From Nostocoides sp. F2B08 (GTDB taxonomy: Bacteria > Actinomycetota > Actinomycetes > Actinomycetales > Dermatophilaceae), in the NCBI RefSeq assembly GCF_009184895.1, contig NZ_WESE01000004.1, positions 519,164-583,163 on the forward strand: a DNA stretch of 64,000 bases, in the 5' to 3' direction. Of this stretch, positions 38,316-62,421 are shown one piece after another. The stretch's first letter is position 1; each line of letters opens with the position of its first letter. A program made the position numbers and the translations under genes. Below the pieces are notes generated by a model, which made no database searches, was not told where the DNA came from, and worked only from the letters and a program-made list of their open reading frames with translations.

Positions 38316-39863
38316 TCAGTGCGCGAGCCAGGGTGCGCCGGCACCGCCGACCAGGCCGATCGGCGCGGCGAGCCGCGCGTAGGTCTCGGACGCACCGGCA
38401 CGCCACACCCGGTACGCGGTGACGTCGTCCGGCGCCGGCTCATAGGTGACCACGGACGTCTCCGCGGGGGCGAGCGCCGAGGCCCCGTCGGCGAGGGAAG
38501 CGGCCTGGCCCAGCGCATACAGGGCCAGGGCGGCCGCACCACGGGCCGAGCCGGCGGCGCTGTCGGTGACGACGACCGGAAGCTCGGTGAGGGCGGCGAG
38601 CACCCGACCCCAGACCGGGGCGCGGAAGGCACCACCCGTGGCGCGGATCTCGGTCACCTCCTCGAGGAGACGGATCTGCTCGACGACCGCCGCGAGCTGG
38701 ACCGCGACACCCTCGACGGTGGCACGGACCAGGTGGGCGCCGGTGTGGTGGTGCCGCAGACCCAGGACGGCGCCGGGGATGTCGACGTCCCACAGCGGTG
38801 ACCGTTCCGGGCGCAGGTAGGGCACGACGTAGAGCCCGTCGCTGCCCGGGCTCACCTGCCCGGCGGCCGCCAGCGCCTCCGTCTCGTCGTCGCCGTCCCG
38901 GTCCTGCTGGTGCAGCAGGTCGACCACCCAGCGGCTGGCCGAGCCGCCGTTGCTCGCGGCCCCTCCGACCACCCAGAGGTCGTCGGCGAGCGCGTAGCAG
39001 AACAGGCCCCGGGGCAGGTCGAGGACCGGCCCGGGAAGGACCGCGCGGGCGGCTGCGCTCGTGCCGATCGAGACCCCGATGGTCCCCGGATGGATCGCGT
39101 CGGTGCCGAGGTTGCCGGTCGGTCCGTCGCCGGCGCCGATGACGACCGGGGTCCCGGGTGGCAGGCCGGTGACCTCCGCCGTTTCCGTGGCGAGCGGCAT
39201 CGAGTGGGTGGTGGGCACGATCGGCGGGAGACGCTCGGCGCCGATCCCCGCCCACGCCAAAGCCCCCTGATGCCACGTGCCGGTCGCGCGGTTGAGCAGC
39301 CCGCTGTCGGAGGCCGACGACAGGTCGCAGACGACCTGCGCCGTCAAGCCGCGGACGATCCAGGTCTTGAGGCCGACCCACTGGTCGACGGCGGCGCTGA
39401 GCTCCGGCTCGTTGCGGGTGAACCACATGATCTTGGCCAGCGGGGACATGGGATGGACCGGCGTGCCGGTGGCCCGGTGCAGCTCGAGGTCCTGTCCCGA
39501 CTCGCGCAGCGCCTCTACCTCGTCGACGGCCCTCGTGTCGGCCCACGTGACCAGTGGGGTGAGCGGTGTGCCGTCCTCCGCCAGCCCGATCAGCCCGTGC
39601 ATCGCCGTGCTCACCCCGAGGCCGACGACCTGAGCCTCGCCGATCGCGCCGACGCACTCGGTCAGTCCCTCGAGGACCGCGGACATCAACTCCGCCGGGT
39701 CCTGCTCGTGCCAGCCGGGATTGGGATGCTCGGTCGGGTAGGTGCGCGACGCGACATGGGTCCACCTGATGTCCAGTCCGAACGCGACGACCTTGGTGGC
39801 CGTGGTCCCGACGTCGACACCGATGACCACCCGGGTGGGTCGGGTGGGTGGCGCGGTGCTCAT
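38316..39863 (-). CDS. gntK: Gluconokinase, FGGY family
   Basis: A 515-residue FGGY sugar kinase. The N-terminal phosphate-binding GVDVGTTATKVVAF, the substrate-domain block STAMHGLIGLAEDGTPLTPLVTWADTRA (the TAMH...WADxR signature of gluconokinases), the ATP domain VVIGAGDGPTGNLGTDAIHPGTIGVSIGTSAA and the C-terminal RATGGAFRAPVWGRVLA are present. It phosphorylates D-gluconate to 6-phosphogluconate. The ATG has GGAGAG upstream. Gnd in the same region would use the product. A GTTGCC-N4-GTTGCC site lies 116 bases before the start. Xylulokinase is the alternative, but the WADTR motif and context favour gluconate. Confidence 0.84.
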   Translation of the reverse strand: MSTAPPTRPTRVVIGVDVGTTATKVVAFGLDIRWTHVASRTYPTEHPNPGWHEQDPAELMSAVLEGLTECVGAIGEAQVVGLGVSTAMHGLIGLAEDGTPLTPLVTWADTRAVDEVEALRESGQDLELHRATGTPVHPMSPLAKIMWFTRNEPELSAAVDQWVGLKTWIVRGLTAQVVCDLSSASDSGLLNRATGTWHQGALAWAGIGAERLPPIVPTTHSMPLATETAEVTGLPPGTPVVIGAGDGPTGNLGTDAIHPGTIGVSIGTSAAARAVLPGPVLDLPRGLFCYALADDLWVVGGAASNGGSASRWVVDLLHQQDRDGDDETEALAAAGQVSPGSDGLYVVPYLRPERSPLWDVDIPGAVLGLRHHHTGAHLVRATVEGVAVQLAAVVEQIRLLEEVTEIRATGGAFRAPVWGRVLAALTELPVVVTDSAAGSARGAAALALYALGQAASLADGASALAPAETSVVTYEPAPDDVTAYRVWRAGASETYARLAAPIGLVGGAGAPWLAH

Positions 39864-39978
39864 GCGTGGCTCTCCAGACGGGCGGGGCGTGATGGGCGTG
39901 ATCGGCGGGACGAGGCGGGGCGTCGACCGCGATGGGCTGCTCTCCTGTCTACCCGCAGGCGGCGTCCGGCGCGCAGGG

Positions 39979-39994
39979 GTTGCCAGAAGTTGCC
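39979..39994. promoter_or_regulatory. Regulon motif copy, upstream of gluconokinase
   Basis: GTTGCC-AGAA-GTTGCC: two direct GTTGCC half-sites, ten bases start to start. It lies between the lacI stop and the gntK start, consistent with gntK having its own regulated promoter. The same layout recurs at 46544, 56809 and (inverted) 56867. Confidence 0.7.
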
Positions 39995-40020
39995 GACCCA
40001 CACCGACCGGTCGACGCGAC

Positions 40021-41034
40021 TCATGTCCTCGCGGGGCCGGTCGACTCCCGCACGACGAGGTGCACCGGCAGCACCGTCGCCTGGTCGGTGCGCGGCTGGG
40101 CGCCCTGGCGCATCGCGACGAGCGTCTGCACGCCGCTGCGGCCCAGCAGCACCGAGGGTGAGGCGACCGTCGTCAGGCCTGGCACGACGAGGTCGGCCGG
40201 CAGCGTGTCGTCGAAGCCGACGACGCTCACCTGACCCGGCACGTCCACCCCGGCCGCGCGCAGGCCCTTGAGGACGCCGACACCGACGAGGTCGTTGTAG
40301 GTCTGGACCGCGGTGTGGTCGCCGCGCGCGATGTCGAGTGCGGCCGCCATGCCGCCCCGGACCGTTGGGGCGACCGGGCCGATCCGCTGCGCAGCCAGCC
40401 CCAGCTCGAAGGCGGCCTCGCGCAGGGCCCGCCACCGCATACCGTCGGCCCAGGACGCCTCCGGGCCGGCGACATAGACGATCGAGGTGTGTCCGAGCTC
40501 GCCGAGGTGCTCGGCGGCGCGCTTGACCCCCCGCGTGTTGTCCGGGACGAAGCACGGCAGTCCGCGCACCTGGCGGTTGAGGACGACGACCGGCTTGATC
40601 CGGGCCAGGCCGCGCAGGTCGGTGTCGGACAGCCGGGAGGAGGTGATGACGAGACCGTCGACGAGGTGGAGCTGGCGGTCGAGCATCTCCCGTTCGGCCG
40701 CTGCCGACTCGTATGCGTCGCCCACGACCAGCGTCAGCCCCGCCTCCGCGGCGGCCCGCTCCGCGCCGCGGATGACCCCGAAGTAGAACGGGTTGGTGAT
40801 GTCGCTGACGGCGAGACCGATGATGCTGTGCCTGTGGGTGGCGGCCGGCCGGAAGATCTCCTCCTGGCGGTAGCCGAGCCGGTCGGCGACGGCGCGGATG
40901 TGGGCACCGGTCTCGCTGCTGACCCGCCCGGGCCGGGCGAAGGCCCGTGACACCGTCGACGGGCTCACCCCCGCCTCCTTCGCCACGTCGTAGATCGTCA
41001 CGCGGCGGGTGCTCGGCCCCTCGGGCGCTCCCAT
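40021..41034 (-). CDS. LacI-family transcriptional regulator of the glucuronide regulon
   Basis: A 337-residue LacI/GalR regulator. The N-terminal HTH and hinge (VTIYDVAKEAGVSPSTVSRAFARPGRVSSETGAHIRAVADRLGY) are followed by a periplasmic-binding-like ligand domain (IIGLAVSDITNPFYFGVIRGAERAA...GFDDTLPADLVVPGLTTV). It sits between gluconokinase and beta-glucuronidase and diverges from the latter, so it likely represses both. The effector would be glucuronate, fructuronate, mannonate or gluconate. The repeated GGCAAC/GTTGCC motif found at several promoters of this region is its best candidate operator. Confidence 0.85.
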   Translation of the reverse strand: MGAPEGPSTRRVTIYDVAKEAGVSPSTVSRAFARPGRVSSETGAHIRAVADRLGYRQEEIFRPAATHRHSIIGLAVSDITNPFYFGVIRGAERAAAEAGLTLVVGDAYESAAAEREMLDRQLHLVDGLVITSSRLSDTDLRGLARIKPVVVLNRQVRGLPCFVPDNTRGVKRAAEHLGELGHTSIVYVAGPEASWADGMRWRALREAAFELGLAAQRIGPVAPTVRGGMAAALDIARGDHTAVQTYNDLVGVGVLKGLRAAGVDVPGQVSVVGFDDTLPADLVVPGLTTVASPSVLLGRSGVQTLVAMRQGAQPRTDQATVLPVHLVVRESTGPART

Positions 41035-41078
41035 GCCTGCGACCTTACCGGCGGAGTCGAGCGCCCGGGCCAACACAT

Positions 41079-41116
41079 GGCAACCGGTTGGCAACCGCCT
41101 CACCTGCGCGGTTGCC
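41079..41116. promoter_or_regulatory. Variant regulon motif between lacI and uidA
   Basis: GGCAAC at 41079-41084 and 41090-41095 (spacer of 5 rather than 4), with an inverted GTTGCC at 41111-41116. CAACCGGTTG at 41081-41090 is a perfect palindrome. The block lies in the divergent lacI-uidA promoter region and would allow autoregulation plus uidA control. Confidence 0.65.
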
Positions 41117-41165
41117 TGAAGGGATCACCCGACGCTTCCGTCACCGATCTCACGAAGGAGAGCAC

Positions 41166-42959
41166 ATGATCCGCCCCCAGGACACGTCCACGAGAGAGCG
41201 CAAGAACCTGAACGGGCTCTGGAGCTTCCGCCTCGACCACGACGGGGTGGGTCGGGAGCAGCAGTGGGCCAGCGGGCCGGTGCCCGAGGCGTCCGAGATG
41301 GCCGTTCCCGCGTCCTACAACGACATCTTCGCCGACGCGACGGCCCGCGACTTCTCCGGCGACGCGTACTACCAGCGCAGCGTGCGCATACCGCGCGGTT
41401 GGGACGGACAGCGGATCACGCTGTACGTCGAGTCGGCGACCCACCACGCGACGGTCTGGGTCGACGGGATCGAGGTCGCCCAGCACGCCGGCGGCTACCT
41501 GCCGTTCGAAGCCGACCTCACCCCACATGTGAGCGCCGGCCAGGAGGTCCTCCTGACGATCTGCGTCAACAACGTGCTGACCTTCCAGACCATCCCGCCC
41601 GGTGTCGTCGAGGACTCCCCGACCGGCCCGAAGCAGATCTACTGGCACGACTTCTACAACTACGCCGGACTGCACCGCACCGTCTGGCTCGCGGCCAGCG
41701 CGCCGACCCGGGTCGAGGACGTCACAGTGCGGACCGAGGTCGACGGGACCACCGGAAGGGTTGCATACGACGTGGTCGTCGAGGGCGGCGAGAGTGGCGG
41801 CGAGAGCGTTACGGTCCGTACCGAGCTGCGCGACGCGGACGGTGCGGTGGTCGCCACCGGGACCGGCTCGAGCGGTGAGCTCGTCGTCGAGGACGTCACC
41901 CTGTGGCAGCCGGGCGCCGCATACCTCTATGACCTGCGGGTCGAGGTGACCGTCGGCGACGAGGTCGTCGACAGCGTCGACCAGACCGTGGGCGTGCGCA
42001 CCGTCGCCGTCGACGGTACCCGTTTCCTCATCAACGGCGAGCCGTTCCACTTCACCGGCTTCGGCATGCACGAGGACCACGACACCGTCGGCAAGGCCCA
42101 CGTCGACGCGCTCATGCTGCGCGACTTCCACCTCCTCGAGTGGATCGGCGCGAACAGCTTCCGCACCTCGCACTACCCCTACAGCGAGGACGTCATGGAC
42201 TACGCCGACCGGGCCGGGATCGTCGTCATCGACGAGACGCCCGCGGTCGGGCTCAACGCGGGGATCGGCGGGGGCATCTTCGGCGGCCAGGGCTACACTA
42301 CTTTCTCTCCCGACACGATCAACGACGCGACGCGGGAGGTGCACGCCCAGGTCATCCGCGACCTCATCGCGCGCGACAAGAACCACCCGAGCGTCGTGCT
42401 GTGGTCGATCGCCAACGAGCCGGAGTCCGACACAGAGGGCGCCGAGGAGTACTTCCGGCCGCTCTTCGACGTCGCCCGCGAGGCCGACCCCACCCGTCCG
42501 GTCGGGTTCGTCAACGTCATGCTCGCTCCGCATGGCACATGCCGGGTGAGCCAGTTCGCGGACGTCATCATGCTCAACCGCTACTACGGCTGGTACGTCA
42601 ACACCGGCGACCTCGCGAACGCCGAGCTGGCCTGGACGGCGGAGATCGAGGGCTGGGCGAGCGACGGCAAGCCGATCATCATCACGGAGTACGGCGCGGA
42701 CACGATGCCGGGTCTGCACCAGGTGCCGGCCGCGCCGTGGTCGGAGGAGTACCAGGTGGAGTACCTCGAGATGAACCACCGCGTCTTCGACGCCTGTGAG
42801 GCCGTCGTCGGCGAGCAGGTATGGAACTTCGCCGACTTCGCCACGACCCCCGGCATCATGCGGGTCGGCGGCAACAAGAAGGGCGTCTTCACCCGCGACC
42901 GCCAGCCCAAGGCCGCCGCCCACTACCTGCGGCGTCGCTGGACGAAGCCGACCGACTGA
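41166..42959 (+). CDS. uidA: Beta-glucuronidase, GH2
   Basis: A 597-residue GH2 enzyme, close in length to E. coli UidA (603 aa). A jelly-roll sugar-binding domain (VPASYNDIF...YYQRSVRIP), an Ig-like domain and a TIM barrel are recognisable. Acid/base E418 lies in SIANEPESD and nucleophile E508 in IITEYGADT. The N-x-K motif that binds the glucuronate carboxylate is present as GGNKKGVFTRDRQPKAAA, which separates true beta-glucuronidases from beta-galactosidases. It is cytosolic (no signal peptide), so it cleaves imported glucuronides. GAAGGAGAG precedes the ATG. It diverges from the LacI gene across candidate operators. Confidence 0.94.
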   Translation: MIRPQDTSTRERKNLNGLWSFRLDHDGVGREQQWASGPVPEASEMAVPASYNDIFADATARDFSGDAYYQRSVRIPRGWDGQRITLYVESATHHATVWVDGIEVAQHAGGYLPFEADLTPHVSAGQEVLLTICVNNVLTFQTIPPGVVEDSPTGPKQIYWHDFYNYAGLHRTVWLAASAPTRVEDVTVRTEVDGTTGRVAYDVVVEGGESGGESVTVRTELRDADGAVVATGTGSSGELVVEDVTLWQPGAAYLYDLRVEVTVGDEVVDSVDQTVGVRTVAVDGTRFLINGEPFHFTGFGMHEDHDTVGKAHVDALMLRDFHLLEWIGANSFRTSHYPYSEDVMDYADRAGIVVIDETPAVGLNAGIGGGIFGGQGYTTFSPDTINDATREVHAQVIRDLIARDKNHPSVVLWSIANEPESDTEGAEEYFRPLFDVAREADPTRPVGFVNVMLAPHGTCRVSQFADVIMLNRYYGWYVNTGDLANAELAWTAEIEGWASDGKPIIITEYGADTMPGLHQVPAAPWSEEYQVEYLEMNHRVFDACEAVVGEQVWNFADFATTPGIMRVGGNKKGVFTRDRQPKAAAHYLRRRWTKPTD

Positions 42960-42991
42960 GCGGTATGCCGTGGTTCCGCGGGCCGCGATCG

Positions 42992-43033
42992 CGAAATGGC
43001 CGTTCCGGTGCAGTCACCGGAACGGCCCTTTCG
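42992..43033. terminator. Bidirectional terminator between uidA and tal
   Basis: A perfect 13-bp stem (42998-43010 with 43015-43027) and a CAGT tetraloop, flanked by CGAAA on the left and TTTCG on the right. It therefore carries a T-run in both directions between the convergent uidA and transaldolase genes. Confidence 0.8.
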
Positions 43034-43187
43034 TGTGGGTTCGCGCTACCTGACCCACTATGTGCTCCTGCCGACCGCTCGCCGTTCCGCTCGCCGTTTC
43101 GGTCCTATTCGGAAGAAGTGGCGAGCCCGGACGCCGCCACCGGGAGTCTTCCCGTGACGGCGTCCCTGTCGGTATGCGGTAGTCGCC

Positions 43188-44297
43188 TTACCGAGCCGCC
43201 GACCGCTCGGAGATGGCCGCGTCGACCGATTCGAGCAGCTCGTTCCACGCGTTCTCGAAGGACTCGACGCCCTGCTCCTCGAGGGTGTGGGTGATGTCGT
43301 CGAGCTCGACGCCGACCTGGCGCAGGCCCGTGATCACCGCCGCTGCGTCGTCGTAGTTCGACCGCACGGTGTCGCCGCGGACCTCGCCGTGGTCGGCGAC
43401 CGCCTCGAGCGTCGCCTCTGGCATCGTGTTGACCGTGCCGGGGGCGACCAACTCGGTGACGTAGAGCGTGTCCGCGTACTCCGGGTTCTTCACGCCCGTG
43501 GACGCCCAGAGCGGACGCTGCGGCCAGGCGCCGGCCTCACGCAAACGCTCCCAGCGCTCACCGCTGAAGGTCTCCTCGTACGCCCGGTACGCCAGGCGCG
43601 CGTTGGCGACGGCGGCCTTCCCGCGCAGCTCGAGCGCCTCGGGCGTGCCGATCTCCTCGAGCCGGGAGTCAACGGCGGTGTCGACCCGGCTGACGAAGAA
43701 GCTCGCGACCGAGGCGATCCCGGCGACGGACTCGCCGGCGGCCAGTCGCTGCTCGAGTCCGGCGAGGTAGGCCTCCATCACCGCGCGATAGCGCTCCAGG
43801 GAGAAGATCAGGGTCACGTTGACGCTGATGCCCTCGGCGATCGCCGACCGGATGGCGGGCAGGCCGGCGAGGGTCGCGGGGATCTTGACGAGCATGTTGG
43901 GCCGGTCGACCTCGTGCCACAGCTCGTGCGCCTGGATGAGGGTCGAGTCGGCGTTGTGGGCGAGTCGCGGGTCGACCTCGATGGAGACCCGACCGTCGAC
44001 GCCGCCGGAGCGCTCATGGACGGGCGCCAGGAGGTCGCAGGCCTCGCGCACGTCGTCGGTCGTCAGCGCGCGGACGACGCCGTCGGCACCGGCCTTGGCG
44101 TACTGCGCGATCTGCTCGTCGTAGAGGTCCGAGCCGGTGATCGCGGCCTTGAAGATCGAGGGGTTCGTCGTCACACCGACGACCGATCCGTCGGCGACCA
44201 GCGCGGCGAGGCTGCCGCTCACGAGTCGCTCTCGCGACAGGTCGTCGAGCCAGACGGATACGCCCTCTCGGGCGAGGTCGTGCAGGGGGTTGGTCAT
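43188..44297 (-). CDS. tal: Transaldolase
   Basis: A 369-residue transaldolase of the actinobacterial Tal type. [15 protein letters not shown] is at 39-53, Schiff-base lysine K138 in [23 protein letters not shown], and [14 protein letters not shown]. It interconverts sedoheptulose-7-P/glyceraldehyde-3-P and erythrose-4-P/fructose-6-P in the non-oxidative pentose phosphate pathway. It follows tkt by 86 bases in the same direction, a usual actinobacterial tkt-tal order. AGGAG precedes the ATG. In this context it returns ribulose-5-P made by Gnd to glycolysis. Confidence 0.93.
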
Positions 44298-44383: not shown

Positions 44384-46459
44384 TCACGATCCGTGCAACG
44401 CGATCTGGGCGCGGGCCTGCTCGACGACGGCCTCGGGGGTGAAGCCGAACTTCGTGAGCAGCTCCTTGAGCGGCGCCGAGGCGCCGAAGGTCGACATGCC
44501 GATGACGGCCCCTTCGGAGCCGACGTAGCGCGCCCAGCCGAGCGTCGAGGCCTGCTCGACCGCGACCCGGGCCTTCACCGCGGGCGGCAGCACCGAGTCG
44601 CGGTACGGCTGGTCCTGCCGGTCGAAGATCTCCCACGACGGCATGGAGACGACCCGGGCGGCGACGCCCTCGGCCGTGAGCGTCTCGTAGGCAGAGACGG
44701 CGAGCGCGACCTCCGACCCGGTCGCGATGAGGATGACCTCCGGCGCGGCACCCGACTGGGGGTCGGCCAGGACATAGGCGCCGCGCGAGAGGCCCGCGGC
44801 CGACGCATACCGGCTGCGGTCCAGCGTGGGCAGCGGCTGGCGGGACAGGAACAGCGCGACCGGGTCGTGGCGGCGCGGCATGAGCCAGCGCCAGGCCTCG
44901 GCGACCTCGTTGGCGTCGGCCGGACGCAGGTCGACCAGGCCGGGCATGGCCCGCAGGGAGACGATCTGCTCGACCGGCTGATGGGTGGGGCCGTCCTCGC
45001 CGACGCCGATCGAGTCGTGCGTGAAGATGTGAACGACCGGCAGCTCCATGAGGGCGGACAGCCGGATCGCGCCACGCTGGAAGTCGGAGAAGATCAGGAA
45101 GCCGGCCTGGAACGGGCGGACCTTGCTCAGCGCGAGGCCGTTGGCGATGCAGCCGGCGGCGTGCTCGCGGACGCCGAAGTGCAGGTTGCGACCCGAGCGG
45201 TCCTGCGGTGAGAACGACCCGGCGTCGGGCCCGGTGATGGTGGTCTTGGTGGACGGAGCAAGGTCGGCGGCACCGCCGATGAGCCACGGGACGCGACCGG
45301 CGACGGCGTTCAGGACCTTACCCGAGGCCTCCCGGCCGGCGACGCCCTTGACGTCCGGCTCGAAGGCGGGGATGTCGGCGTCCCAGTCCTCCGGCAGCTC
45401 GCGGCGCTGCATGCGCTCGACCTGGTCGGCGAGGTCCGGGTACTCCTGGGCATAGGCCGCGAAGGCCGCCTCCCACTCCTCGCGCGCCGTGTGGCCGCGC
45501 GCACCGATGCCGTCGGCGAAGTGCTCGTAGACGTCCTCGGGGACGAGGAAGTCGCTGTCCTCGGGCCAGCCGTAGAACCGCTTGGCGCCGCGGATCTCGT
45601 CCGCCCCGAGCGGCTCGCCGTGGGCGCCGTGGGTGCCCTCCTTGGTCGGCGCACCATAGGCGATTCGGGAGTCGACGATGATCAGCGTCGGCCGGTTCTG
45701 CTCCGCCTTGAACGACGCGAACGCCCGGGCCAGCATCCGGCGGTCGTTGGCGTCGCCGACGCGGGTGACGTTCCAGCCGAGGGCGACGAACTTCGTCGCG
45801 ATGTCGTCCGAGAAGGCCAGTTCGGTGTCGCCCTCGATGGTGATCTCGTTGTTGTCGTAGACCCAGCAGAGGTTGGCCAGGCGCAGGTGTCCGGCCAGTG
45901 ACGCCGCCTCCTGGGCGACGCCCTCCATCATGTCGCCGTCGCCGCCGATGGCGTAGACGTCGTAGTCGAACAGCTCGTAGCCCGGACGGTTGTAGGTCGC
46001 GCCCTGCCAGAGGGAGGCCATCGCCATGCCGACGCTCGTCGCGAAGCCGGTGCCGAGCGGTCCGGTCGTCGCCTCGACACCGGCGGTCCAGCGGTACTCC
46101 GGGTGGCCAGGGGTCTTGGAATCGAGCTGCCGGAAGCTGCGCAGGTCGTCGAGGGACACCGACGGCTCGCCGAGCGTCTCGTACTCGGGGTTGACCGAGC
46201 GGACCCCGGTCAGGTGCAGCAGGGAGTACAGGAGCGTCGAGGCGTGACCGGCCGAGAGGACGAAGCGGTCGCGGTTGGGCCAGATCGGCGCCTGTGGGTC
46301 GAACCGGAGGAACTCCTGCCACAGCGTGTATGCGACGGGCGCCAACGCGACCGGCGTCCCGGGGTGTCCGGAGTCGGCAGCCTGGACCGCGTCCATGGCG
46401 AGGGTTCGGATCGTCGCCACCGCGCGGTCGGCGGGGTCGGGAATGGTCACGGACGTCAT
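44384..46459 (-). CDS. tkt: Transketolase
   Basis: A 691-residue transketolase. ThDP-binding GGDGDMMEG with [43 protein letters not shown] and [19 protein letters not shown] (pyrimidine domain) are all present. It transfers two-carbon units between pentose and hexose phosphates. AAGGGAGACTCC precedes the ATG. Upstream, between tkt and the divergent larE, lies a GTTGCC-N4-GTTGCC site. A housekeeping tkt-tal pair commonly has zwf, pgl or opcA beside it. Here the neighbours are sugar-acid genes, so this may be a dedicated or co-regulated copy. Confidence 0.94.
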
Positions 46460-46543: not shown

Positions 46544-46559
46544 ATTGCCGCTTGTTGCC
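46544..46559. promoter_or_regulatory. Regulon motif copy between tkt and larE
   Basis: ATTGCC-GCTT-GTTGCC, ten bases start to start, in the 137-base divergent region between tkt and larE. It matches the sites upstream of gntK and between uxaC and the kinase-like gene except for the first base. Confidence 0.65.
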
Positions 46560-51490: not shown

Positions 51491-51540
51491 GTCGACAACG
51501 CTAGAGGGCACCACTGACAGCGCTACCCGAGTGAATCGGG

Positions 51541-51614
51541 TTATCCACAAACGCGATTCGCCGCGTCTGGCACCACACCGCGACACGCCGGACACCCCAC
51601 CCGGATGTGGACAA
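51541..51614. promoter_or_regulatory. Two DnaA-box-like sequences
   Basis: TTATCCACA at 51541-51549 (plus strand) and TGTGGACAA at 51606-51614 (the complement of TTGTCCACA). Both match actinobacterial DnaA-box consensus forms. They lie in the 232-base non-coding gap between the HNH gene start and the gnd stop. They could titrate DnaA or be part of the HNH-gene promoter. Confidence 0.5.
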
Positions 51615-51722
51615 CGCCACGGACGGCGCAGCGGTGGCCACCACCCCCGATAGCCACCGCCGAACCGTCCCTCGCGGGTTGGCGGGGCCGATCGGCAGCC
51701 CGAGCGACCGGACTGCAGACCG

Positions 51723-54644: not shown

Positions 54645-56090
54645 TCAGAATCCGCGGGACGCCGCTTCTTTGGCGATCCGGCGGTCGGCGATCTCCTGGA
54701 CGATCTTCTTGTACAGCGCGTCGGTCAGCGGGTAGAAGTACATGACCAGCGCCGCGAGGATCGAGAAGAGGGCGACGAGGCCACCGGCCCAGAGCTGGAT
54801 GTTGTCGCCGACTCCGGCGTCCTGGGCCTCTCCGCCTGAGGCCCGAGCGGCGCTGAAGCCGGCGATGGTCAGCGCGATGCCGCCGATGAAGCCGCCGAGC
54901 GCCTGGCCCATCTTGCGGGTGAAGGAGAACACCGCATAGGTCGTGCCCTCGGTGCGGGCTCCGGTCTTCCACTCGCCGAACTCGACCGTGTCGGCCTCGA
55001 GGGCCCACATGAAGGTGTTCACGCCGTTGATGCCGAGTCCCATGATGAAGAAGGCGACCAGACCCCACCACGGCGCCGTGGACAGCGGTGCGAAGGCGAG
55101 GACTGCGGCTCCGGCGACCGTGATGAGCGCGAGGGCGACGTAGCCGGTTTTCTTGCCGACGGTGCGCACGATCGACGGGACGAGCGGGCCGACGACGAGC
55201 AGCGCACCGACCTGGGCGAGGATGTTCCACGCGATGAACTGGGCGTCCTGCTGGACGTAGATCGCGATGTACGACCCCAGAGTGGTCAGGGCGGTCATGC
55301 CGCTGAGGTAGAGCACGGCACTGCCGGACAGGAGCAGCAGCGGACGGTTCTTGCGCAGCGTCGCGAAGCTCTGCTTCATCGACACCGGCTCGGGCGAGCG
55401 GGCCACCTGCTCCCTGGTGCTCCAGATCAGGAAGCCGTAGAGCAGGGCACCGATGACGACGAAGGACGCGGTGATCGTGAAGAGCCGCTGCTGGAGCACC
55501 TGGGGGTCGTCGGCGATGCCGCGCAGCTGTGGGCCGACGAGGAAGGCGAGGAAGAGCAGGCCGGTCATCGCGCCGTACATGCGGAAGGTCGCGAGCTTGC
55601 CGCGCTCGGTCGGCACCTGGGTCATCGACGGAGCCATCGAGCCGTAGGGGATGTTCACGAGGGTGTAGAACACCGAGCCCATCAGGATGTACGTGACGTA
55701 CATGTAGACCACGGCCGCGGTCCCGCTGATGTCCGGGAAGAACTGCTTGGCGGAGTAGATCGCCATGCTCGACAGCAGCAACGGGAGCGCGAAGATCAGG
55801 ATCAGCGGGCGGAACTTGCCGAGCCTGCCGGGGCGCCGGGTGTCGACGAAGCGGCCCGCGAGCAGGTCGGTGATGCCGTCGAAGAAGCGGACGACGAGGA
55901 ACATCGTGCCGACGACGGCCGCGCCGATCCCGACGACGTTCGTGTAGTAGAGGATGAGGAACATCCCGGCCATCGAGAACGTGAGGTTGTTCGCGAAGTC
56001 GCCGGCCGCATACCCGAGGTAGTTGCGGATCGTGAGCGGTTTGGCGGTGGTGCTGGGCGCGGGAGCCGCGGTGGTGGCGCTGGTGGCCAT
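54645..56090 (-). CDS. GPH-family glycoside/hexuronide:cation symporter
   Basis: A 481-residue transporter with twelve hydrophobic helices. The first loop motif (NYLGYAAGDFANNLTFSMAGMFLILYYTN) and VVRFFDGITDLLAGRFVDTRRPGRLGKFRP (the D-x-x-x-D-x-x-x-G and R-x-G-R-x-R/K-P signature) mark the glycoside-pentoside-hexuronide family, which includes E. coli UidB and XylP/MelB. It would import a glucuronide, or another hexuronide, with H+ or Na+. It lies between the kinase-like gene and larA in the minus-strand operon. The RLGKFRP segment is the hallmark loop. Confidence 0.88.
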   Translation of the reverse strand: MATSATTAAPAPSTTAKPLTIRNYLGYAAGDFANNLTFSMAGMFLILYYTNVVGIGAAVVGTMFLVVRFFDGITDLLAGRFVDTRRPGRLGKFRPLILIFALPLLLSSMAIYSAKQFFPDISGTAAVVYMYVTYILMGSVFYTLVNIPYGSMAPSMTQVPTERGKLATFRMYGAMTGLLFLAFLVGPQLRGIADDPQVLQQRLFTITASFVVIGALLYGFLIWSTREQVARSPEPVSMKQSFATLRKNRPLLLLSGSAVLYLSGMTALTTLGSYIAIYVQQDAQFIAWNILAQVGALLVVGPLVPSIVRTVGKKTGYVALALITVAGAAVLAFAPLSTAPWWGLVAFFIMGLGINGVNTFMWALEADTVEFGEWKTGARTEGTTYAVFSFTRKMGQALGGFIGGIALTIAGFSAARASGGEAQDAGVGDNIQLWAGGLVALFSILAALVMYFYPLTDALYKKIVQEIADRRIAKEAASRGF

Positions 56091-56120: not shown

Positions 56121-56735
56121 TTAGAGTGCGGCGCCCAGGGCGTCGACGATGGCGGCGGTGGCGTGCTCCACCGGGATGCGGGAGGTGTTGAGGACGAGGT
56201 CGTAGGCGTCGGGCTGGCGGGGGTCCCAGCCGTAGAGCGTGATCGACATGTCGGCACGCACCTGGTCCTCACGCCGCTGGCGCTCGGTGGCCTCCTCGAC
56301 GGAGATACCGTCCCGCTGCGCCGCGTAGGCGATGCGGGCCTCGACCGAGCCGGTGAGGAGCACATGGAGGGTGCTCGGGCGGTTCTTGAGGATCACGGCG
56401 CCGTTGCGGCCCATGATGACTCCGCCGGCTTCCGCCTCGTCCCACACGGCGCGGGTGTTCGAGACGGTGAGCTCGTACTTCTCGCGCTGGACGGTCGCCA
56501 CGTCGCGGCTCTCGATGCCTCCGTACGCGCCGCCCAGGACCGAGAGGACCCGCACCAGCTCCGCGGCCTCGGCAGTCGCGGCCCCCGGATCGGAGAGCTG
56601 CTCGGACGAGAACGCCTGGGCGTGGAACGGCAGGCCGAGACGCTCGGCCACGGCGCGGCCGATCTCCTCGCCACGGGCTCCGTAGTACTCGTAGATCGTG
56701 ACAACAGGTGGTATCGACTGTGTCGGCTCGGACAT
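56121..56735 (-). CDS. Cytidylate-kinase-like family protein
   Basis: A 204-residue protein of the cytidylate-kinase-like family: VVTIYEYYGARGEEIGRAVAERLGLPFH at the N terminus, MGRNGAVILKNRPSTLHVLLTGSVEARIAYA in the middle, and a lid-like REDQVRADMSITLYGWDPRQPDAYDLVLNTSRIP. The usual P-loop glycines are modified (YGARGEE), as is normal for this family, whose substrate is unknown. It is the first gene of the minus-strand operon with the transporter, larA and gnd, with GAGGAGGGG before the ATG. Its presence in a sugar-acid operon hints at a kinase or regulatory role there. Confidence 0.78.
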   Translation of the reverse strand: MSEPTQSIPPVVTIYEYYGARGEEIGRAVAERLGLPFHAQAFSSEQLSDPGAATAEAAELVRVLSVLGGAYGGIESRDVATVQREKYELTVSNTRAVWDEAEAGGVIMGRNGAVILKNRPSTLHVLLTGSVEARIAYAAQRDGISVEEATERQRREDQVRADMSITLYGWDPRQPDAYDLVLNTSRIPVEHATAAIVDALGAAL

Positions 56736-56808: not shown

Positions 56809-56824
56809 GTTGCCACATGTTGCC
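56809..56824. promoter_or_regulatory. Regulon motif copy A in the uxaC/kinase-like divergent promoter
   Basis: GTTGCC-ACAT-GTTGCC, 74 bases upstream of the kinase-like gene start. It is a perfect match to the direct-repeat motif of this region. Confidence 0.75.
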
Positions 56825-56866: not shown

Positions 56867-56882
56867 GGCAACTTGTGGCAAC
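56867..56882. promoter_or_regulatory. Regulon motif copy B in the uxaC/kinase-like divergent promoter
   Basis: GGCAAC-TTGT-GGCAAC, the reverse-strand form of GTTGCC-ACAA-GTTGCC; it differs from copy A at one spacer base. It overlaps the expected -10 region of uxaC. Confidence 0.75.
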
Positions 56883-56920: not shown

Positions 56921-58330
56921 GTGACCTCACTAGCCCTCCACCCCGACCGGCTCTTCCCCGCCGACCCCTCGACCCGCGAGGTGGCGCGGCGGCTCTACGA
57001 CTCCGTCAAGGACCTGCCGATCATCTCCCCGCACTCGCACGTGCCGCCGGAGTGGATCAGCGACGACATCCCGTTCCGCGACCCGACCTCCCTGCTCATC
57101 ACGCCGGACCACTACGTCACCCGGCTGCTGCACGCCCACGGCGTGCCGCTGCACGAGCTGGGCGTCGGTGCGGGCGAGCTCGACGAGGACGCCTCGCGCG
57201 CCGCCTTCCGGCACCTGTGCGCCCACTGGGGTGTCTACGCCGGCACCCCGGTCCGCTACTGGCTCGAGTCCGAGCTCGTCGACATCTTCGGTGTCACCGA
57301 GGTCCCGACCGCCCAGAACGCCGATGCCGTCTATGACCAGGTCGCCGAGTGGATCGCCCGGGACTCCTCGCGACCGCGGGCACTCATGGAGTCCTTCGAC
57401 ATCGAGGTGCTCGCGACGACGGACGACCCGTGCGACGACCTCGCCCACCACAAAGCTCTCTCCGAGGACCCGACGTTCTCCCGGCGGATGGTCCCGACCT
57501 TCCGGCCCGACCGCTACCTGGAGCCGGGTCGCACCGACTGGAACGCGCATACCGACCGGCTCGCCGAGGTCAGCGGCATCGCCTGCGACAGCTGGGCCGG
57601 CTGGGTGGCCGCGATGGAGAACCGCCGCGAGCACTTCCGCGCGCACGGCGCCGTCTCGACCGACCACAGCCACAAGGACCTGCGCACCGATGTGCTCGAG
57701 GTCGCCGACGCCGAGCGCATCTACGCCGCGGCGCGGTCGGGGTCGATCACCGCGCACCAGGCTGAGGCGCTGCAGCGGCACATGCTCACCGAGATGGCCC
57801 GGATGGCCACCGACGACGGCATGACGATGACCCTGCACCCGGCCGTCGCCCGCAACCACCACGGCCCGACCTTCGAGCGCTACGGCGCCGACGTCGGCGC
57901 GGACATCCCGGTCGACGTCGAGGTCACCCGCGCGTTGGCGCCACTGCTGAACCGCTACGGCACCTCGCCGAACCTCAGGCTCGTCGTCTTCACCATGGAC
58001 GAGACCGTCTTCTCCCGCGAGCTCGGGCCGCTGGCCGGGTTCTACCCGTCGCTGTACGTCGGAGTGCCCTGGTGGTTCCTCGACGCGCCCGACGCGATCC
58101 GGCGCTTCCGCAAAGCCGTCACGGAGTCGGCCGGTTTCGGCAAGACCTCCGGCTTCATCGACGACACCCGCGCCTTCTGCTCCATCCCGGCCCGCCACGA
58201 CATGTCCCGCCGCCTCGACAGCGTCCACCTCGCCGAGCTCGTCGTCGAGCACCGGCTGCGCGAGGAGGAGGCCGCCGAGGTCGTCCACGCGCTCGTCGCC
58301 GACAACCCCAGGAAGGTGTTCAGCCTGTGA
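56921..58330 (+). CDS. uxaC: Uronate (glucuronate) isomerase
   Basis: A 469-residue protein, the same length as E. coli UxaC (470 aa). LPIISPHSHVPPEWI supplies the N-terminal HxH metal motif. Further blocks are ALMESFDIEVLATTDDPCDDL, DHSHKDL, and LHPAVARNHH...VVFTMDET and YVGVPWWFLDAPDA near the C terminus. It converts D-glucuronate to D-fructuronate (and galacturonate to tagaturonate). The start is GTG 56921; it is followed by the UxuB-like gene with a stop/start overlap (GTGA at 58327-58330). It lies downstream of TTGACG and two regulon motifs, as first gene of the plus-strand operon. Confidence 0.93.
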   Translation: MTSLALHPDRLFPADPSTREVARRLYDSVKDLPIISPHSHVPPEWISDDIPFRDPTSLLITPDHYVTRLLHAHGVPLHELGVGAGELDEDASRAAFRHLCAHWGVYAGTPVRYWLESELVDIFGVTEVPTAQNADAVYDQVAEWIARDSSRPRALMESFDIEVLATTDDPCDDLAHHKALSEDPTFSRRMVPTFRPDRYLEPGRTDWNAHTDRLAEVSGIACDSWAGWVAAMENRREHFRAHGAVSTDHSHKDLRTDVLEVADAERIYAAARSGSITAHQAEALQRHMLTEMARMATDDGMTMTLHPAVARNHHGPTFERYGADVGADIPVDVEVTRALAPLLNRYGTSPNLRLVVFTMDETVFSRELGPLAGFYPSLYVGVPWWFLDAPDAIRRFRKAVTESAGFGKTSGFIDDTRAFCSIPARHDMSRRLDSVHLAELVVEHRLREEEAAEVVHALVADNPRKVFSL

Positions 58331-59751
58331 GCACGTCACCCGTGAGCACCACCACCTCTGCCCGCCGCCTGTCGCGGGCCACCGACTCCCGGCCCGCCGC
58401 GCCCGTGCGCATCGTGCACCTCGGCGTCGGCAACTTCTTCCGAGCGCACCAGGCCTGGTACACCGAGCACGCGAGCGACGCCGCCGACTGGGGTATCGCG
58501 GCGTTCACCGGCCGCTCGGCCGCGATCGCCGAGACCCTCGCCCCTCAGGACGGGCTCTACACGCTCGTCGTCCAAGGCGCCCAAGGCAACGACTACGAGG
58601 TCATCGGCTCCCTCTCCGCGGTCCATGCGGCGCAGGATCTCGATGCGCTGCGCGGCTACCTCGCCGACCCCGCCGTCGTCATCGTCACGAGCACCGTCAC
58701 CGAGGCCGGATACCTGCGGACCCCGGACGGCGGCGCCGACCTCGCGAACCCCGCCCTGGCCGCCGACGTCGCCGCCCTCCGGGAGGACCCGGCCGGCGCC
58801 TCGGTCACGACGCTCCCCGGCAAGCTCGTCGCCGGCCTGCTCGCCCGCCGTGCCGCCGCCGGCGACGCGCCCATCACCTTCGTCCCCTGCGACAACGTCT
58901 CCGGCAACGGCGAGATGGTCGAGACCGTGCTGCGCGACACGGCTGGTGCGGTGGACCCGACCCTGGTCGAGTGGATCGACCGCACCTGCGGCTTCGTCAC
59001 GACGATGGTCGACCGCATCACCCCACGGCCGACCGAGGCCGACCTCGCCGCCGTGCGGGTCGACCGCGGCGTGGACGACCCGGCCGTCGTCGTCACCGAG
59101 CCGTTCACCGAATGGGTGCTGTCCGGTGAGTTCACCGGCGGCCACCCCGACTGGGAGAGTGCCGGCGCCCACTTCGTCGACGACATCGACCCGTTCGAGA
59201 CCCGCAAACTCTGGCTGCTCAACGGTTCGCACTCACTCATGGCCTACGCCGCCACGATCCTCGGGATCGACACCGTCTACGACGCCATCCACGACCCGCG
59301 CGTCCGCGGCTGGGTCGACGAGTGGTGGGACGTCGCCGCGCGTCACCTGCCGCTCCCCGCCGAGGAGATCCAGGGGTACCGCGACGCGCTCGTCGAGCGC
59401 TACGAGAACCCGCAGATCCACCACCTGCTCGCGCAGATCGCCGCCGACGGCTCGCAGAAGCTGCCGATCCGGATCGTGCCCGCCCTGCTCGCCGACCGGG
59501 CCGCCGGAGCCATGCCGACCGGCGCCGTCCGCGCCGTCGCCGCCTGGGTCCTGCACCTGCGAGGCCTCGGTGCACCGGTGAACGACGCCTACGCCGCCGA
59601 GGTCGTGCCGCTCGCCGAGGGACCGCTCGACGAGGCGGTCGCTCGCATCCTCCGGCGGCTCGGCGTCGACGATCCCGCGGTCGCCACCGCCGTCGTCGAC
59701 GAGGCCGAGGCGCTCGCCGAACTGTCACCCCACAACCCCGAAAGGACCTGA
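58327..59751 (+). CDS. Mannitol-dehydrogenase-family fructuronate reductase (UxuB-like)
   Basis: A 474-residue polyol dehydrogenase. NAD-binding VRIVHLGVGNFFRAHQAWY lies at 27-45, VTSTVTEAGYL at 120-130, PCDNVSGNG at 187-195, and the catalytic RKLWLLNGSHSLMAY places K294, N299 and H302 in the family's K-x4-N-x2-H pattern. In the glucuronate pathway it reduces D-fructuronate to D-mannonate with NADH. Mannitol or altronate activities are alternatives, but co-translation with uxaC favours fructuronate. No mannonate dehydratase (UxuA) gene follows, which is the puzzle that LarA may solve. Confidence 0.9.
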   Translation: MSTSPVSTTTSARRLSRATDSRPAAPVRIVHLGVGNFFRAHQAWYTEHASDAADWGIAAFTGRSAAIAETLAPQDGLYTLVVQGAQGNDYEVIGSLSAVHAAQDLDALRGYLADPAVVIVTSTVTEAGYLRTPDGGADLANPALAADVAALREDPAGASVTTLPGKLVAGLLARRAAAGDAPITFVPCDNVSGNGEMVETVLRDTAGAVDPTLVEWIDRTCGFVTTMVDRITPRPTEADLAAVRVDRGVDDPAVVVTEPFTEWVLSGEFTGGHPDWESAGAHFVDDIDPFETRKLWLLNGSHSLMAYAATILGIDTVYDAIHDPRVRGWVDEWWDVAARHLPLPAEEIQGYRDALVERYENPQIHHLLAQIAADGSQKLPIRIVPALLADRAAGAMPTGAVRAVAAWVLHLRGLGAPVNDAYAAEVVPLAEGPLDEAVARILRRLGVDDPAVATAVVDEAEALAELSPHNPERT

Positions 59752-59753
59752 CC

Positions 59754-61523
59754 ATGGTTGACCTGAGAGCCGTCCCCTACGAGCTCGACGACGAGGGCGT
59801 GGAGTGGGTGGAATCGACCCTGGCCGCGATGACCCTGGAGGAGAAGGTCGGCCAGCTCTTCGTCAACATGGGGGCCAGCCGCGACGAGGACTACCTCAAG
59901 GACGCCCTCGACCGCTACAAGTTCGCCGGCGTCCGCTACAACCCCGGGACGGCCGCCGAGGTGCACGAGCAGAACCGGATCCTCCAGGAGAACAGCGCCA
60001 TCCCGCTCCTCATCGCCGCCAACACCGAGGCGGGCGGCAACGGCGCCTGCAAGGACGGCACGGAGGTCGGCTACGAGGTCAAGGTGGGGGCGACCGCGGA
60101 CCCGCGCTACGCATACGAGCTGGGCCGGGTCTCCGGCGTCGAGGCGACCGCCATCGGCTGCAACTGGAGCTTCGCTCCGATCGTCGACATCTACTACAAC
60201 TGGCGCAACCCGATCATCTCCAACCGCTCCTTCGGCGGCGACCCGCAGCTCGTCCTCGACATGGGTCTGGCCTACATGGAGGGCTTCCAGGAGTCCGGTG
60301 CCGTCTGCGCGGCCAAGCACTTCCCCGGCGACGGCGTCGACGAGCGCGACCAGCACCTGTCGTTCTCGGTCAACTCGCTCTCCGAAGAGGAGTGGAACGA
60401 GACGTTCGGCAAGGTCTGGCGCGGCCTGATCGACGCCGGCCTGCCCTCGCTCATGGCCGGCCACATCCACCTTCCCGCGTTCCAGCGCAAGTACGACCCG
60501 GGCGTCGCCGACGAGGACCTCCTGCCCGCCACCCTGAGCAGGGAGATCATGACCGACCTGCTCCGCGGCGAGCTCGGCTTCAACGGCGTCGTCGTCACCG
60601 ACGCGAGCCACATGGTCGCGCTCACCTCCTCGATGCGGCGCGCGGACCTCGTGCCGACGGCGATCGCCGCCGGCTGCGACCTGTTCCTCTTCTTCAACGA
60701 CCCGGACGAGGACACGGAGTACATGCTCGACGGCATCCGCCGCGGGATCCTCACCGAGGAGCGGGTCGACGAGGCCGTCACCCGCACCCTCGGCCTCAAG
60801 GCCCGGATCGGTCTGCACCGGAAGGGCAAGACCGAGATCGTGCCGCCAGCCGAGGAGAGCCTGAAACTCGTCGGGCTGCCCGAGAACACGGCGGTCTTCG
60901 CGGAGATCGCCGACAGGGCGATCACCCTCGTCAAGAACACCCAGCCCCACATCCTGCCGGTGACGCCGGAGCGGTACCGGCGCATCCTCCTCGTCCCCGT
61001 CGACGGTCCGCCCAACCCGGCAGCCGCCTTCTTCGGCGCCGGCGGCGAGAAGGCCGTCGACCTCCTCGCCGCGAAGCTGCGCGAGCGTGGACACGAGGTC
61101 GAGGTGTTCGAGTCCGCGATCAGCCGGATCGGCCGGCTGCCCGAAGCGGAGCGCGGCGCGGCGCTGCAGAACATGTATGCGGGCAAGGCGCCGATCAAGG
61201 ACTTCGTCGCGAAGTACGACCTCGTCATCAACGTGGCCCAGGTCGTGGGCGGGATGCAGCCCGTCGAGCGCATCTCATGGCCGGCGAGCAAGGGCACTCC
61301 GGACCTGCCGTGGTACGTCCACGAGATCCCGACGATCTTCGTCTCCGTCAACTGCCCCTACCACCTCGCCGACGCGCCGGCGGTCAAGTGCTACATCAAC
61401 ACCTACGACCCGCGGCCGGTCACCCTCGACCTGCTGCTCGACAAGCTCGCCGTGGGCGCCCAGGCCTTCACCGGCGTCTCTCCCGCCGACGCCTTCTGCG
61501 GCTTCATCGACACGAGGATCTGA
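59754..61523 (+). CDS. GH3 glycoside hydrolase, NagZ-like
   Basis: A 589-residue protein. The TIM-barrel domain has GQLFVNMG, PLLIAANTEAGGNG, FAPIVDIYYNWRNPIISNRSFGGDP and KHFPGDGVDERDQH at 188-201. The KHFPG and D-x-H (D199, H201) pattern is that of NagZ-type beta-N-acetylhexosaminidases, whose Asp-His pair serves as acid/base. Nucleophile D283 lies in VVVTDASHM. A C-terminal alpha/beta-sandwich is present (ITLVKNTQPHILPVTP...). There is no signal peptide. Located between uxuB-like and HAD genes, it may release hexosamine from glucuronate-containing disaccharides, or be a second glucuronidase. The substrate is not provable. Confidence 0.82.
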   Translation: MVDLRAVPYELDDEGVEWVESTLAAMTLEEKVGQLFVNMGASRDEDYLKDALDRYKFAGVRYNPGTAAEVHEQNRILQENSAIPLLIAANTEAGGNGACKDGTEVGYEVKVGATADPRYAYELGRVSGVEATAIGCNWSFAPIVDIYYNWRNPIISNRSFGGDPQLVLDMGLAYMEGFQESGAVCAAKHFPGDGVDERDQHLSFSVNSLSEEEWNETFGKVWRGLIDAGLPSLMAGHIHLPAFQRKYDPGVADEDLLPATLSREIMTDLLRGELGFNGVVVTDASHMVALTSSMRRADLVPTAIAAGCDLFLFFNDPDEDTEYMLDGIRRGILTEERVDEAVTRTLGLKARIGLHRKGKTEIVPPAEESLKLVGLPENTAVFAEIADRAITLVKNTQPHILPVTPERYRRILLVPVDGPPNPAAAFFGAGGEKAVDLLAAKLRERGHEVEVFESAISRIGRLPEAERGAALQNMYAGKAPIKDFVAKYDLVINVAQVVGGMQPVERISWPASKGTPDLPWYVHEIPTIFVSVNCPYHLADAPAVKCYINTYDPRPVTLDLLLDKLAVGAQAFTGVSPADAFCGFIDTRI

Positions 61524-61524
61524 G

Positions 61525-62421
61525 ATGGACCACCCTCCCCACGCCCAGGTGCTCGTCGACTTCGAGCCGCGCCACGACGTCTTCGTCGGGATCGACTCGG
61601 ACGGCTGCGCCTTCGACGCCATGGAGATCAAGCACCAGGAGTGCTTCACCCCGAACACCATCAAGTGGTGGGGCCTGCAGGCCGTCTCGACGTATGCGCG
61701 GGAGACCGCCCTCTTCGTCAACCTGTACTCGACCTCACGTGGGCAGAACCGCTGGGTCGCGCTCAAGCGCGTCTTCGACCTGTTGCGCGAGCGGCCAGAG
61801 GTCGCCGAGCGCGGCGTGCAGGTACCGGCCGGCGACGAGCTGCAGGCTTTCCTCGACTCCGGCTACCCGTTGTCGGATCTCGGGATCCAGCAGTGGGCGA
61901 GCGAGCACCCCGGCCCGGAGATCGAACGGTGCCTGCTGTGGGGCGCCGGCGTCAACGCCTCGATCGCCGACATGGTCCACGGCGTGCCACCGTTCCCCGG
62001 CGTGCGCGAAGCGCTCCAGCAGATGAGCGCGCACGCCGACCTCATGGTGGTCTCCGCCACCCCGGGCGAGGCGCTGCAGCGGGAGTGGACCGAGCACGGG
62101 CTGGCCGACTACATGTCGGTCATCGCGGGCCAGGAGATGGGCAGCAAGGCCCAGCACGTCCAGTTCGCCGCGACCGGCAAGTATGCGGCGGACCGGATCC
62201 TGCTCATCGGCGACGCTCCCGGGGACAGGGACGCGGCGCGCACCGCTGGGTGTCTGTACTACCCGATCAACCCGCACGCCGAGGCGGCGTCATGGCGCCG
62301 GCTGCGCGAGGAGGCCTTCCCGAAGCTGCTGGACGGCACCTACGCCGGGGACTACCAGGAGGCCCTCGTCGCCGAGTTCGAGGCCCTGCTGCCCGCCGAC
62401 CCGCCGTGGGTGACGCGCTGA
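61525..62421 (+). CDS. HAD-superfamily hydrolase
   Basis: A 298-residue HAD phosphatase-like protein. Motif I is VFVGIDSDGCAFDAME (nucleophile Asp; D-x-D-G-C), motif II LMVVSATPGEAL, a lysine in EMGSKAQHVQ, and motif IV ILLIGDAPGDRDAA. A large cap of about 130 residues lies between motifs I and II. It probably dephosphorylates a sugar phosphate or acts as a mutase. The ATG lies one base after the GH3 stop (TGAG-ATG), so it is the last gene of the uxaC operon. The substrate is unknown, perhaps a stalled phosphosugar. Confidence 0.82.
   Translation: MDHPPHAQVLVDFEPRHDVFVGIDSDGCAFDAMEIKHQECFTPNTIKWWGLQAVSTYARETALFVNLYSTSRGQNRWVALKRVFDLLRERPEVAERGVQVPAGDELQAFLDSGYPLSDLGIQQWASEHPGPEIERCLLWGAGVNASIADMVHGVPPFPGVREALQQMSAHADLMVVSATPGEALQREWTEHGLADYMSVIAGQEMGSKAQHVQFAATGKYAADRILLIGDAPGDRDAARTAGCLYYPINPHAEAASWRRLREEAFPKLLDGTYAGDYQEALVAEFEALLPADPPWVTR

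Follow-up and report, generated by a model that had tools for sequence, protein, structure and literature searches.

A glucuronide gene block of Nostocoides sp. F2B08 with a predicted LarA-family epimerase in place of mannonate dehydratase

The canonical bacterial route of glucuronate catabolism proceeds through UxaC, UxuB, UxuA, KdgK, and Eda. A different exit from mannonate, through GntE and GntK, was proposed for Thermotoga maritima by Rodionova et al. in 2012, as reported in the available parts of three later papers (PMC6978723, PMC3750489, and PMC7583248). In the available text of Desguin et al. 2020 (PMC7583248), two LarA homologues, GntE1 (LarAH19) of Corynebacterium glutamicum and GntE2 (LarAH20) of T. 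maritima, were shown to epimerise mannonate to gluconate, a reaction that probably gives mannonate access to the pentose phosphate pathway; the GntE1 group is linked to uronic acid genes. A variant through phosphomannonate was shown in Lactobacillus suebicus by Valk et al. 2020 (PMC6978723, accessible part). The accessible portions of PMC11796402 and PMC5301498 add nothing on the mannonate-gluconate route. Here we describe a 24 kb gene block of Nostocoides sp. F2B08 (GCF_009184895.1), which occupies positions 38316-62421 of the analysed stretch of contig NZ_WESE01000004.1 (64,000 nucleotides, positions 519,164 to 583,163; hereafter the window). A sequence-only reading of this DNA had regarded the pathway as undescribed. 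A route of this kind is already known, having been proposed in 2012, with its enzyme shown in 2020. What is new here is a glucuronide-fed, operator-linked actinobacterial form without UxuA; no glucuronide-fed actinobacterial version was seen among the papers listed in a literature search that left out most subscription journals and supplementary tables.

It is likely, at a probability of about 75%, that the block is one glucuronide-utilisation regulon in which a predicted LarA-family epimerase takes the place of mannonate dehydratase. The steps, and the flux through them, would run as follows. The GPH symporter probably brings in a glucuronide, which the beta-glucuronidase (GUS) would split. 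UxaC would convert glucuronate to fructuronate, and the UxuB-like enzyme probably reduces fructuronate to D-mannonate. Mannonate would then be epimerised at C2 to D-gluconate, probably by LarA carrying the cofactor that LarB, LarC, and LarE produce. Gluconate is probably the substrate of the FGGY kinase, whose product, 6-phosphogluconate, would be turned by Gnd into ribulose 5-phosphate and CO2, leading onward through transketolase (Tkt) and transaldolase (Tal). Such a replacement of the dehydratase by LarA had been put forward in the sequence-only reading, and it is well supported by the absences, the GntE-like LarA, the extra gnd, tkt, and tal genes, the shared motif, and the UxaC-UxuB-LarA clusters of relatives described below; the parts that fail are its novelty and its labelled carbon. 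By established chemistry, UxaC and UxuB turn the molecule round, and the carboxyl C6 of glucuronate is C1 of mannonate and gluconate. Gnd would therefore release C6 of glucuronate, and not C1 as had been expected. One reductant would be spent at UxuB and one regained at Gnd, so the route would be redox-neutral to ribulose 5-phosphate.

The canonical branch beyond mannonate was searched in the whole genome (4,509,588 bases in 45 contigs, completeness rated 100). UxuA (PF03786) had no match in the genome, and the same search was positive in 5 of 14 control genomes. The aldolase for 2-keto-3-deoxy-6-phosphogluconate (KDPG), Eda, likewise had no match as PF01081, the only aldolase family searched, which was found in 8 of the 14 controls. 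The dehydratase families covered were UxuA, the MR_MLE/enolase superfamily, and ILVD/EDD; PfkB is too broad to single out the kinase for 2-keto-3-deoxygluconate (KDG). A ManD-type mannonate dehydratase in place of UxuA was rejected. There are two PF13378 matches, one being MenC (460 bits, NCBIfam) and the other an open reading frame (ORF) which we take, by inspection, to be enolase. As these are the only matches of the superfamily, no glucarate dehydratase belonging to it was seen. A sugar-acid dehydratase of the ILVD/EDD family was also rejected, since the sole member is IlvD (1133 bits). With no UxuA, no PF01081, and no other dehydratase of the tested families in the genome, mannonate has no visible exit without epimerisation.

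The LarA homologue of the block has the Lar_N domain and the LarA fold, and is the single Lar_N protein of the genome. In the alignment to 2yjg, its residues D56, R59, H90, H179, K189, H205, and K304 correspond to the catalytic or nickel-pincer nucleotide-binding residues D72, R75, H108, H174, K184, H200, and K298, and these seven residues are invariant across 21 sequences. The GntE signature of groups 18-20, which consists of the EV/S loop, W in alpha 11, and A/V in alpha 14, is found as E180 V181, W206, and A303, where the placement of A303 in alpha 14 is our own reading of the sequence. The best NCBIfam match is NF052594, a putative hexonate epimerase of group 18; at 152 bits it is below the cut-off of 500, so the protein is not filed under this equivalog. 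The nearest solved relative is GntE2 of T. maritima, with 30% identity in the structural alignment; there is no GntE1 structure among those listed. It is thus probable that the block LarA is a D-mannonate/D-gluconate 2-epimerase. The AlphaFold model is weak at 181-190, the stretch that contains K189, and for this reason no fine claim about the active site is built on it. All the cofactor genes, larB, larC, and larE, are inside the block. LarE has three cysteines, a feature reminiscent of those LarE proteins that bear an iron-sulfur cluster and do not sacrifice a cysteine of their own. In the plasmid collection, relatives of LarA at E < 1e-50 were seen only in two Embleya records.

Every gene that the sequence-only reading had named in the block (GPH, GUS, UxaC, UxuB-like, LarA, FGGY kinase, Gnd, Tkt, and Tal) was confirmed by NCBIfam or Pfam profile matches (Table 1). 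The absence of UxuA and PF01081 KDPG aldolase and the presence of an NxK stretch in GUS were confirmed as well. Each NCBIfam model was judged against its own cut-off, and these curated cut-offs are passed by GUS, UxaC, Gnd, Tkt, Tal, LarB, LarC, and LarE. In GUS, the NxK stretch is NKKG at residue 570, and NEP and TEYG stretches are present. We take NxK to be the carboxylate-binding motif, and the roles of NEP and TEYG are likewise assumed. UxaC is firmly assigned, by its sequence, to the glucuronate isomerase family. The importer is above the cut-off of the GPH symporter subfamily and below that of the glucuronide transporter equivalog. The UxuB-like reductase is below the cut-offs for fructuronate reductase (242 bits, cut-off 603) and D-arabinitol 4-dehydrogenase (250 bits, cut-off 600); it belongs to the UxuB family by both of its Pfam domains and a K-x4-N-x2-H stretch, whose role we assume. 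The kinase does not reach the cut-off of the gntK_FGGY equivalog, which is the best of 12 families, and its best match in PDB, 3gbt, is a gluconate kinase. The substrates proposed for the importer, the UxuB-like enzyme, the kinase, and LarA follow from gene context and nearest relatives.

The pentose phosphate genes of the block are not the only ones in the genome. The search for a second set, suggested by the sequence-only reading, found another tkt-tal pair on L106, 47% (tkt) and 61% (tal) identical to the block copies. This pair adjoins a ctaB-like ORF, and ORFs a few kb away are presumably Tpi, Pgk, and Gap, judging from inspection of their sequences. The other 6-phosphogluconate dehydrogenase match in the genome is a gnd of the short form that adjoins a DnaN-like ORF, and the block Gnd is the only long form seen. 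Because of these genes elsewhere, tkt and tal of the block are considered to be extra copies, and its Gnd a second 6-phosphogluconate dehydrogenase. The idea that the block tkt and tal are plain housekeeping genes was rejected for the same reason. The extra Tkt and Tal may raise capacity.

The genes of the block share a promoter motif. The exact sequence TTGCC-N5-TTGCC occurs four times in the window against 0.03 expected: once before gntK, once between tkt and larE, and twice in the intergenic stretch from which the cytK-GPH-larA-gnd run and uxaC diverge. There are seven copies in the genome and three of the reversed control, a number equal to that of the copies outside the block. The binomial probability of at least four of seven copies in the window is 1.4e-6, a post hoc value for a motif picked by eye there. 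With one mismatch allowed, six places are found in the window against 1.46 expected, the additional two being in the lacI/GUS interval and inside GUS. One outside copy, on L108, is ~350 bp before an ORF resembling alpha subunits of 2-oxoacid:ferredoxin oxidoreductases. Around LarA genes of relatives, 1.43 Mb of sequence contains 76 copies, spread over 46 of the 80 loci, whereas five first-order Markov simulations yielded 3, 0, 1, 0, and 1. Of the 76 copies, 29 (from 28 loci) are at most 350 bp upstream of larA. Many relatives have GGCAA ahead of the first TTGCC, giving GGCAA-N4-TTGCC, and this left half is weak in the window copies. The form with GGCAA resembles a LacI-type palindrome with an extra half-site. 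The motif appears to tie the block genes together as one regulon, and perhaps the LacI protein of the block reads it. The palindrome TGGCAACCGGTTGGCA of the lacI-GUS interval is not repeated in the window on either strand, even with three mismatches allowed. The LacI consensus TGNNANCGNTNNCA was also scanned for and discarded; its one match in the window is outside the block.

The gene neighbourhood is conserved in relatives. The LarA loci compared were the best 80 of 571 confirmed stretches. The numbers of loci with a matching gene near LarA are 60 for UxuB, 57 for UxaC, 57 for LacI, 30 for Gnd, 16 for GntK, and 15 for GUS. UxaC or UxuB is present in 63 loci, of which 54 have both; Gnd or GntK occurs in 36, and any of LarB, LarC, and LarE in 33. 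Many loci end at contig ends; restricting the count to the 49 that exceed 21 kb leaves 37 with UxaC or UxuB and 14 with Gnd. UxuA was checked for 50 of the 80 loci, mostly from named isolates and mainly leaving out metagenome assemblies, which without L052 are 49 genomes. It was found in two of them, at 183 bits (L073) and 94 bits (L080). The unassigned neighbours formed 23 clusters present in at least three loci, which were scanned together (25 of 47 families listed), 10 of the 23 also singly; neither KDPG aldolase nor UxuA was among the families listed. One cluster, in three loci including L003 and L004, is a PfkB-type kinase. In these two close relatives, this kinase gene adjoins LarA (L003:8660-9931 and L004:6615-7718). 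No UxaC or UxuB was seen within 21 kb around LarA in L003.

The same association is observed among 296 genomes drawn from the class. Matches with E 1e-20 or better counted as LarA, up to five candidates being scored per genome, and UxuA counted only over its Pfam cut-off, leaving out weaker matches in G267 and G288, which have neither LarA nor UxaC. UxaC was found in 46 genomes, block-type LarA in 15, and UxuA in 16. LarA and UxaC occur together in 12 genomes (p 1.7e-8), UxuA and UxaC in 11, and LarA and UxuA in none, with kinship ignored. In one genome from the same family as Nostocoides sp. F2B08 (G097), UxaC and UxuA (427 bits) are ~75 bases apart, which indicates that the canonical and the LarA types coexist within one family.

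Several observations weigh against the proposed regulon. LarA, the kinase, the reductase, and the importer are all under the substrate-specific NCBIfam cut-offs. The absence search extended neither to KDG kinase nor to aldolases outside PF01081. Since the motif was first spotted by eye in the promoter regions, the statistics given for the window and the genome are post hoc. None of the 80 loci has Tkt or Tal near LarA, and 17 of the 80, some cut by contig ends, have neither UxaC nor UxuB nearby. Three of the 15 LarA-positive genomes have no UxaC. The exclusion of UxuA among UxaC-positive genomes is weak (0/12 against 11/34, p 0.044, kinship ignored). Half of the UxaC-positive genomes, 23 of 46 (e.g., G051, G143, and G330), have neither UxuA nor block-type LarA, and therefore at least one further route from the products of UxaC exists in the class. 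The KM of GntE1 for mannonate is 120 mM, and its authors suspect another substrate, an aldarate or uronate (available text of PMC7583248).

Four other explanations bear on these points. The first is narrower and compatible with the proposed regulon: the glucuronate route would stop at Gnd, and Tkt, Tal, and perhaps the kinase would be neighbours serving other sugars. The lack of Tkt and Tal near LarA in relatives and the low count of GntK fit it, as does the motif copy at 46545, which is closer to larE than to tkt and could serve larE alone. The block tkt and tal are, however, extra copies, and the motif is before gntK too; this narrower route is less likely than the full one.

In the second, the order is reversed as in L. 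suebicus; the kinase would act on mannonate and LarA on 6-phosphomannonate, with the same entry into the pentose phosphate pathway through 6-phosphogluconate. Cell extracts of L. suebicus carry out this conversion, and the organism produces a homologue of the Thermotoga gene, although the enzymes are not pinned to genes in the accessible part of the paper (PMC6978723). The position of the block kinase under the gluconokinase cut-off is consistent with this order, but purified GntE1, GntE2, and a GntE from an oomycete act on free mannonate (available text of PMC7583248 and PMC11770544), which makes the reversed order unlikely.

Third, LarA could act on another sugar acid of uronate pathways, such as glucarate/mannarate, suggested for group 19, with the gluconate genes serving external gluconate. 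The high KM of GntE1 agrees with this, and the signature of the block LarA fits groups 18-20 without narrowing to one group. It is nevertheless quite improbable here: the steps assigned to the block UxaC and UxuB end in mannonate, which would otherwise have no visible exit in the genome, no glucarate dehydratase of the enolase superfamily is seen there, and the nearest solved relative is GntE2 rather than GntE1. Finally, an ordinary KDG/KDPG route through a dehydratase and an aldolase of families outside the search, with LarA doing something else, has room in the scope of the search and in the further route implied by the 23 genomes, but is very improbable, as the UxuA, MR_MLE, and ILVD/EDD families offer no candidate and the motif is common to gntK, larE/tkt, larA-gnd, and uxaC.

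The features of the block are summarized in Table 1, with gene starts assigned from homology and reading frame. On the minus strand are the FGGY kinase, LacI regulator, Tal, Tkt, LarC, HNH/DUF222 ORF, Gnd, LarA homologue, GPH symporter, and Cytidylate_kin2 protein, and on the plus strand are GUS, LarE-LarB, UxaC, the UxuB-like reductase, the GH3 enzyme, and the HAD hydrolase. The genes uxaC and uxuB overlap by 4 bases, and the following gaps are 2 bases (uxuB-GH3) and 1 base (GH3-HAD), so uxaC-uxuB-GH3-HAD looks like one operon. In the minus-strand run cytK, GPH, larA, and gnd, the successive gaps are 30, 104, and 58 bases. These two runs share one divergent region.

Table 1. Features of the glucuronide block and their positions in the window.
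Feature	Positions	Strand	Evidence or location
FGGY-family kinase, probable gluconokinase	38316-39863	-	gntK_FGGY 350 bits (cut-off 648), XylB 254, PDB 3gbt 249 bits; start by homology
Motif copy TTGCC-N5-TTGCC	39980-39994	+	117 bp upstream of gntK
LacI-family regulator, candidate motif reader	40021-41034	-	PF00356, PF13377
One-mismatch motif copy (41069-41083) overlapping palindrome TGGCAACCGGTTGGCA (41078-41093)	41069-41093	.	between lacI and GUS
GH2 beta-glucuronidase	41166-42959	+	PRK10150 875 bits (cut-off 544), motifs
Transaldolase, second copy	43188-44297	-	PRK03343 542 bits (cut-off 367)
Transketolase, second copy	44384-46459	-	TIGR00232 777 bits (cut-off 682)
Motif copy	46545-46559	+	between tkt (86 bp) and larE (38 bp)
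LarE, sulfur transferase of nickel-pincer cofactor synthesis	46597-47466	+	TIGR00268 257 bits (cut-off 150)
LarB, nickel-pincer cofactor synthesis	47463-48194	+	NF033503 256 bits (cut-off 175)
LarC, nickel insertion, one continuous ORF	48682-49944	-	TIGR00299 188 bits (cut-off 90), NF052512, PF01969
DUF222/HNH endonuclease-like ORF	49997-51742	-	between larC and gnd
6-phosphogluconate dehydrogenase, long form	51723-53156	-	PRK09287 689 bits (cut-off 413)
LarA-family epimerase, probable D-mannonate/D-gluconate 2-epimerase	53215-54540	-	
GPH-family symporter, probable glucuronide importer	54645-56090	-	TIGR00792 336 bits (cut-off 231); PRK09848 409 bits (cut-off 528)
Cytidylate_kin2 protein	56121-56735	-	PF13189 99 bits
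Motif copy	56810-56824	+	divergent region, GPH-larA-gnd run vs uxaC
Second motif copy, divergent region	56867-56881	-	40 bp before uxaC
UxaC, glucuronate isomerase	56921-58330	+	PRK02925 536 bits (cut-off 387)
UxuB-like reductase, mannitol dehydrogenase family, probable fructuronate reductase	58327-59751	+	PF01232, PF08125
GH3 enzyme	59754-61523	+	PF00933; best PDB 5vqd, beta-glucoside phosphorylase BglX, 389 bits
HAD-family hydrolase	61525-62421	+	PF13419 E 6e-8; weak phosphoglycolate phosphatase matches

Four genes within the block, those for the GH3 enzyme, the HAD hydrolase, the Cytidylate_kin2 protein, and the HNH/DUF222 ORF, were not mentioned in the sequence-only reading. The GH3 and HAD genes form the end of the uxaC operon, and both recur in only three of the 80 related loci (L003, L031, and L037). 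The Cytidylate_kin2 gene is at the head of the GPH-larA-gnd run, and a similar gene is present in one of the 80. The DUF222/HNH ORF may have entered the block as a mobile element.

It is somewhat likely that many Actinomycetes use a GntE-type LarA in place of the whole UxuA-KdgK-Eda branch, and that here a single operator-linked regulon covers the path from glucuronide import to private gnd, tkt, and tal, a redox-neutral path from glucuronate to pentose phosphates that needs nickel and LarB, LarC, and LarE. If so, glucuronide breakdown in many Actinomycetes would hinge on nickel and the nickel-pincer cofactor. Automated annotation would miss the pathway, as its key gene is mostly named lactate racemase in the source records. 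GntE-like LarA would have a physiological role outside Thermotoga, which can be tested in the cultured Ornithinimicrobium pekingense (L005) and Knoellia aerolata (L023). The block would also represent a redox-neutral entry of uronic acids to pentose phosphates; the L. suebicus pathway, also redox-neutral, is named useful for engineering by Valk et al. (accessible part of PMC6978723).

In comparison with the known systems, the block has the first two steps of the canonical route, from glucuronate to mannonate. The canonical route then proceeds by dehydration to KDG and cleavage of KDPG, whereas UxuA and PF01081 are not found here. With the galacturonate pathway of L. suebicus, as far as the accessible text describes it (PMC6978723), the block shares the UxaC and UxuB steps and, after them, 6-phosphogluconate and Gnd. 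Unlike in our proposal, phosphorylation precedes epimerisation in L. suebicus, a phosphoketolase follows, and the enzymes are known from extracts and not from genes. The LarA fold, the catalytic residues, the EV/S loop, and the W signature of the block LarA are those of GntE1 and GntE2 in the available text of PMC7583248. The UxaR regulon of T. maritima (gnd, uxaE, uxaD, gntE, and gntK) resembles the block in leading from hexuronate to mannonate and in combining a GntE-type LarA, a gluconate kinase, and Gnd under one regulator (available text of PMC3750489 and PMC6978723). It differs in being fed by pectin or galacturonate and in keeping kdgA-kdgK-uxuB-uxuA within that regulon (PMC3750489, available text), whereas the block is fed through GUS, is without UxuA and PF01081, and carries the motif at tkt-tal and larE.

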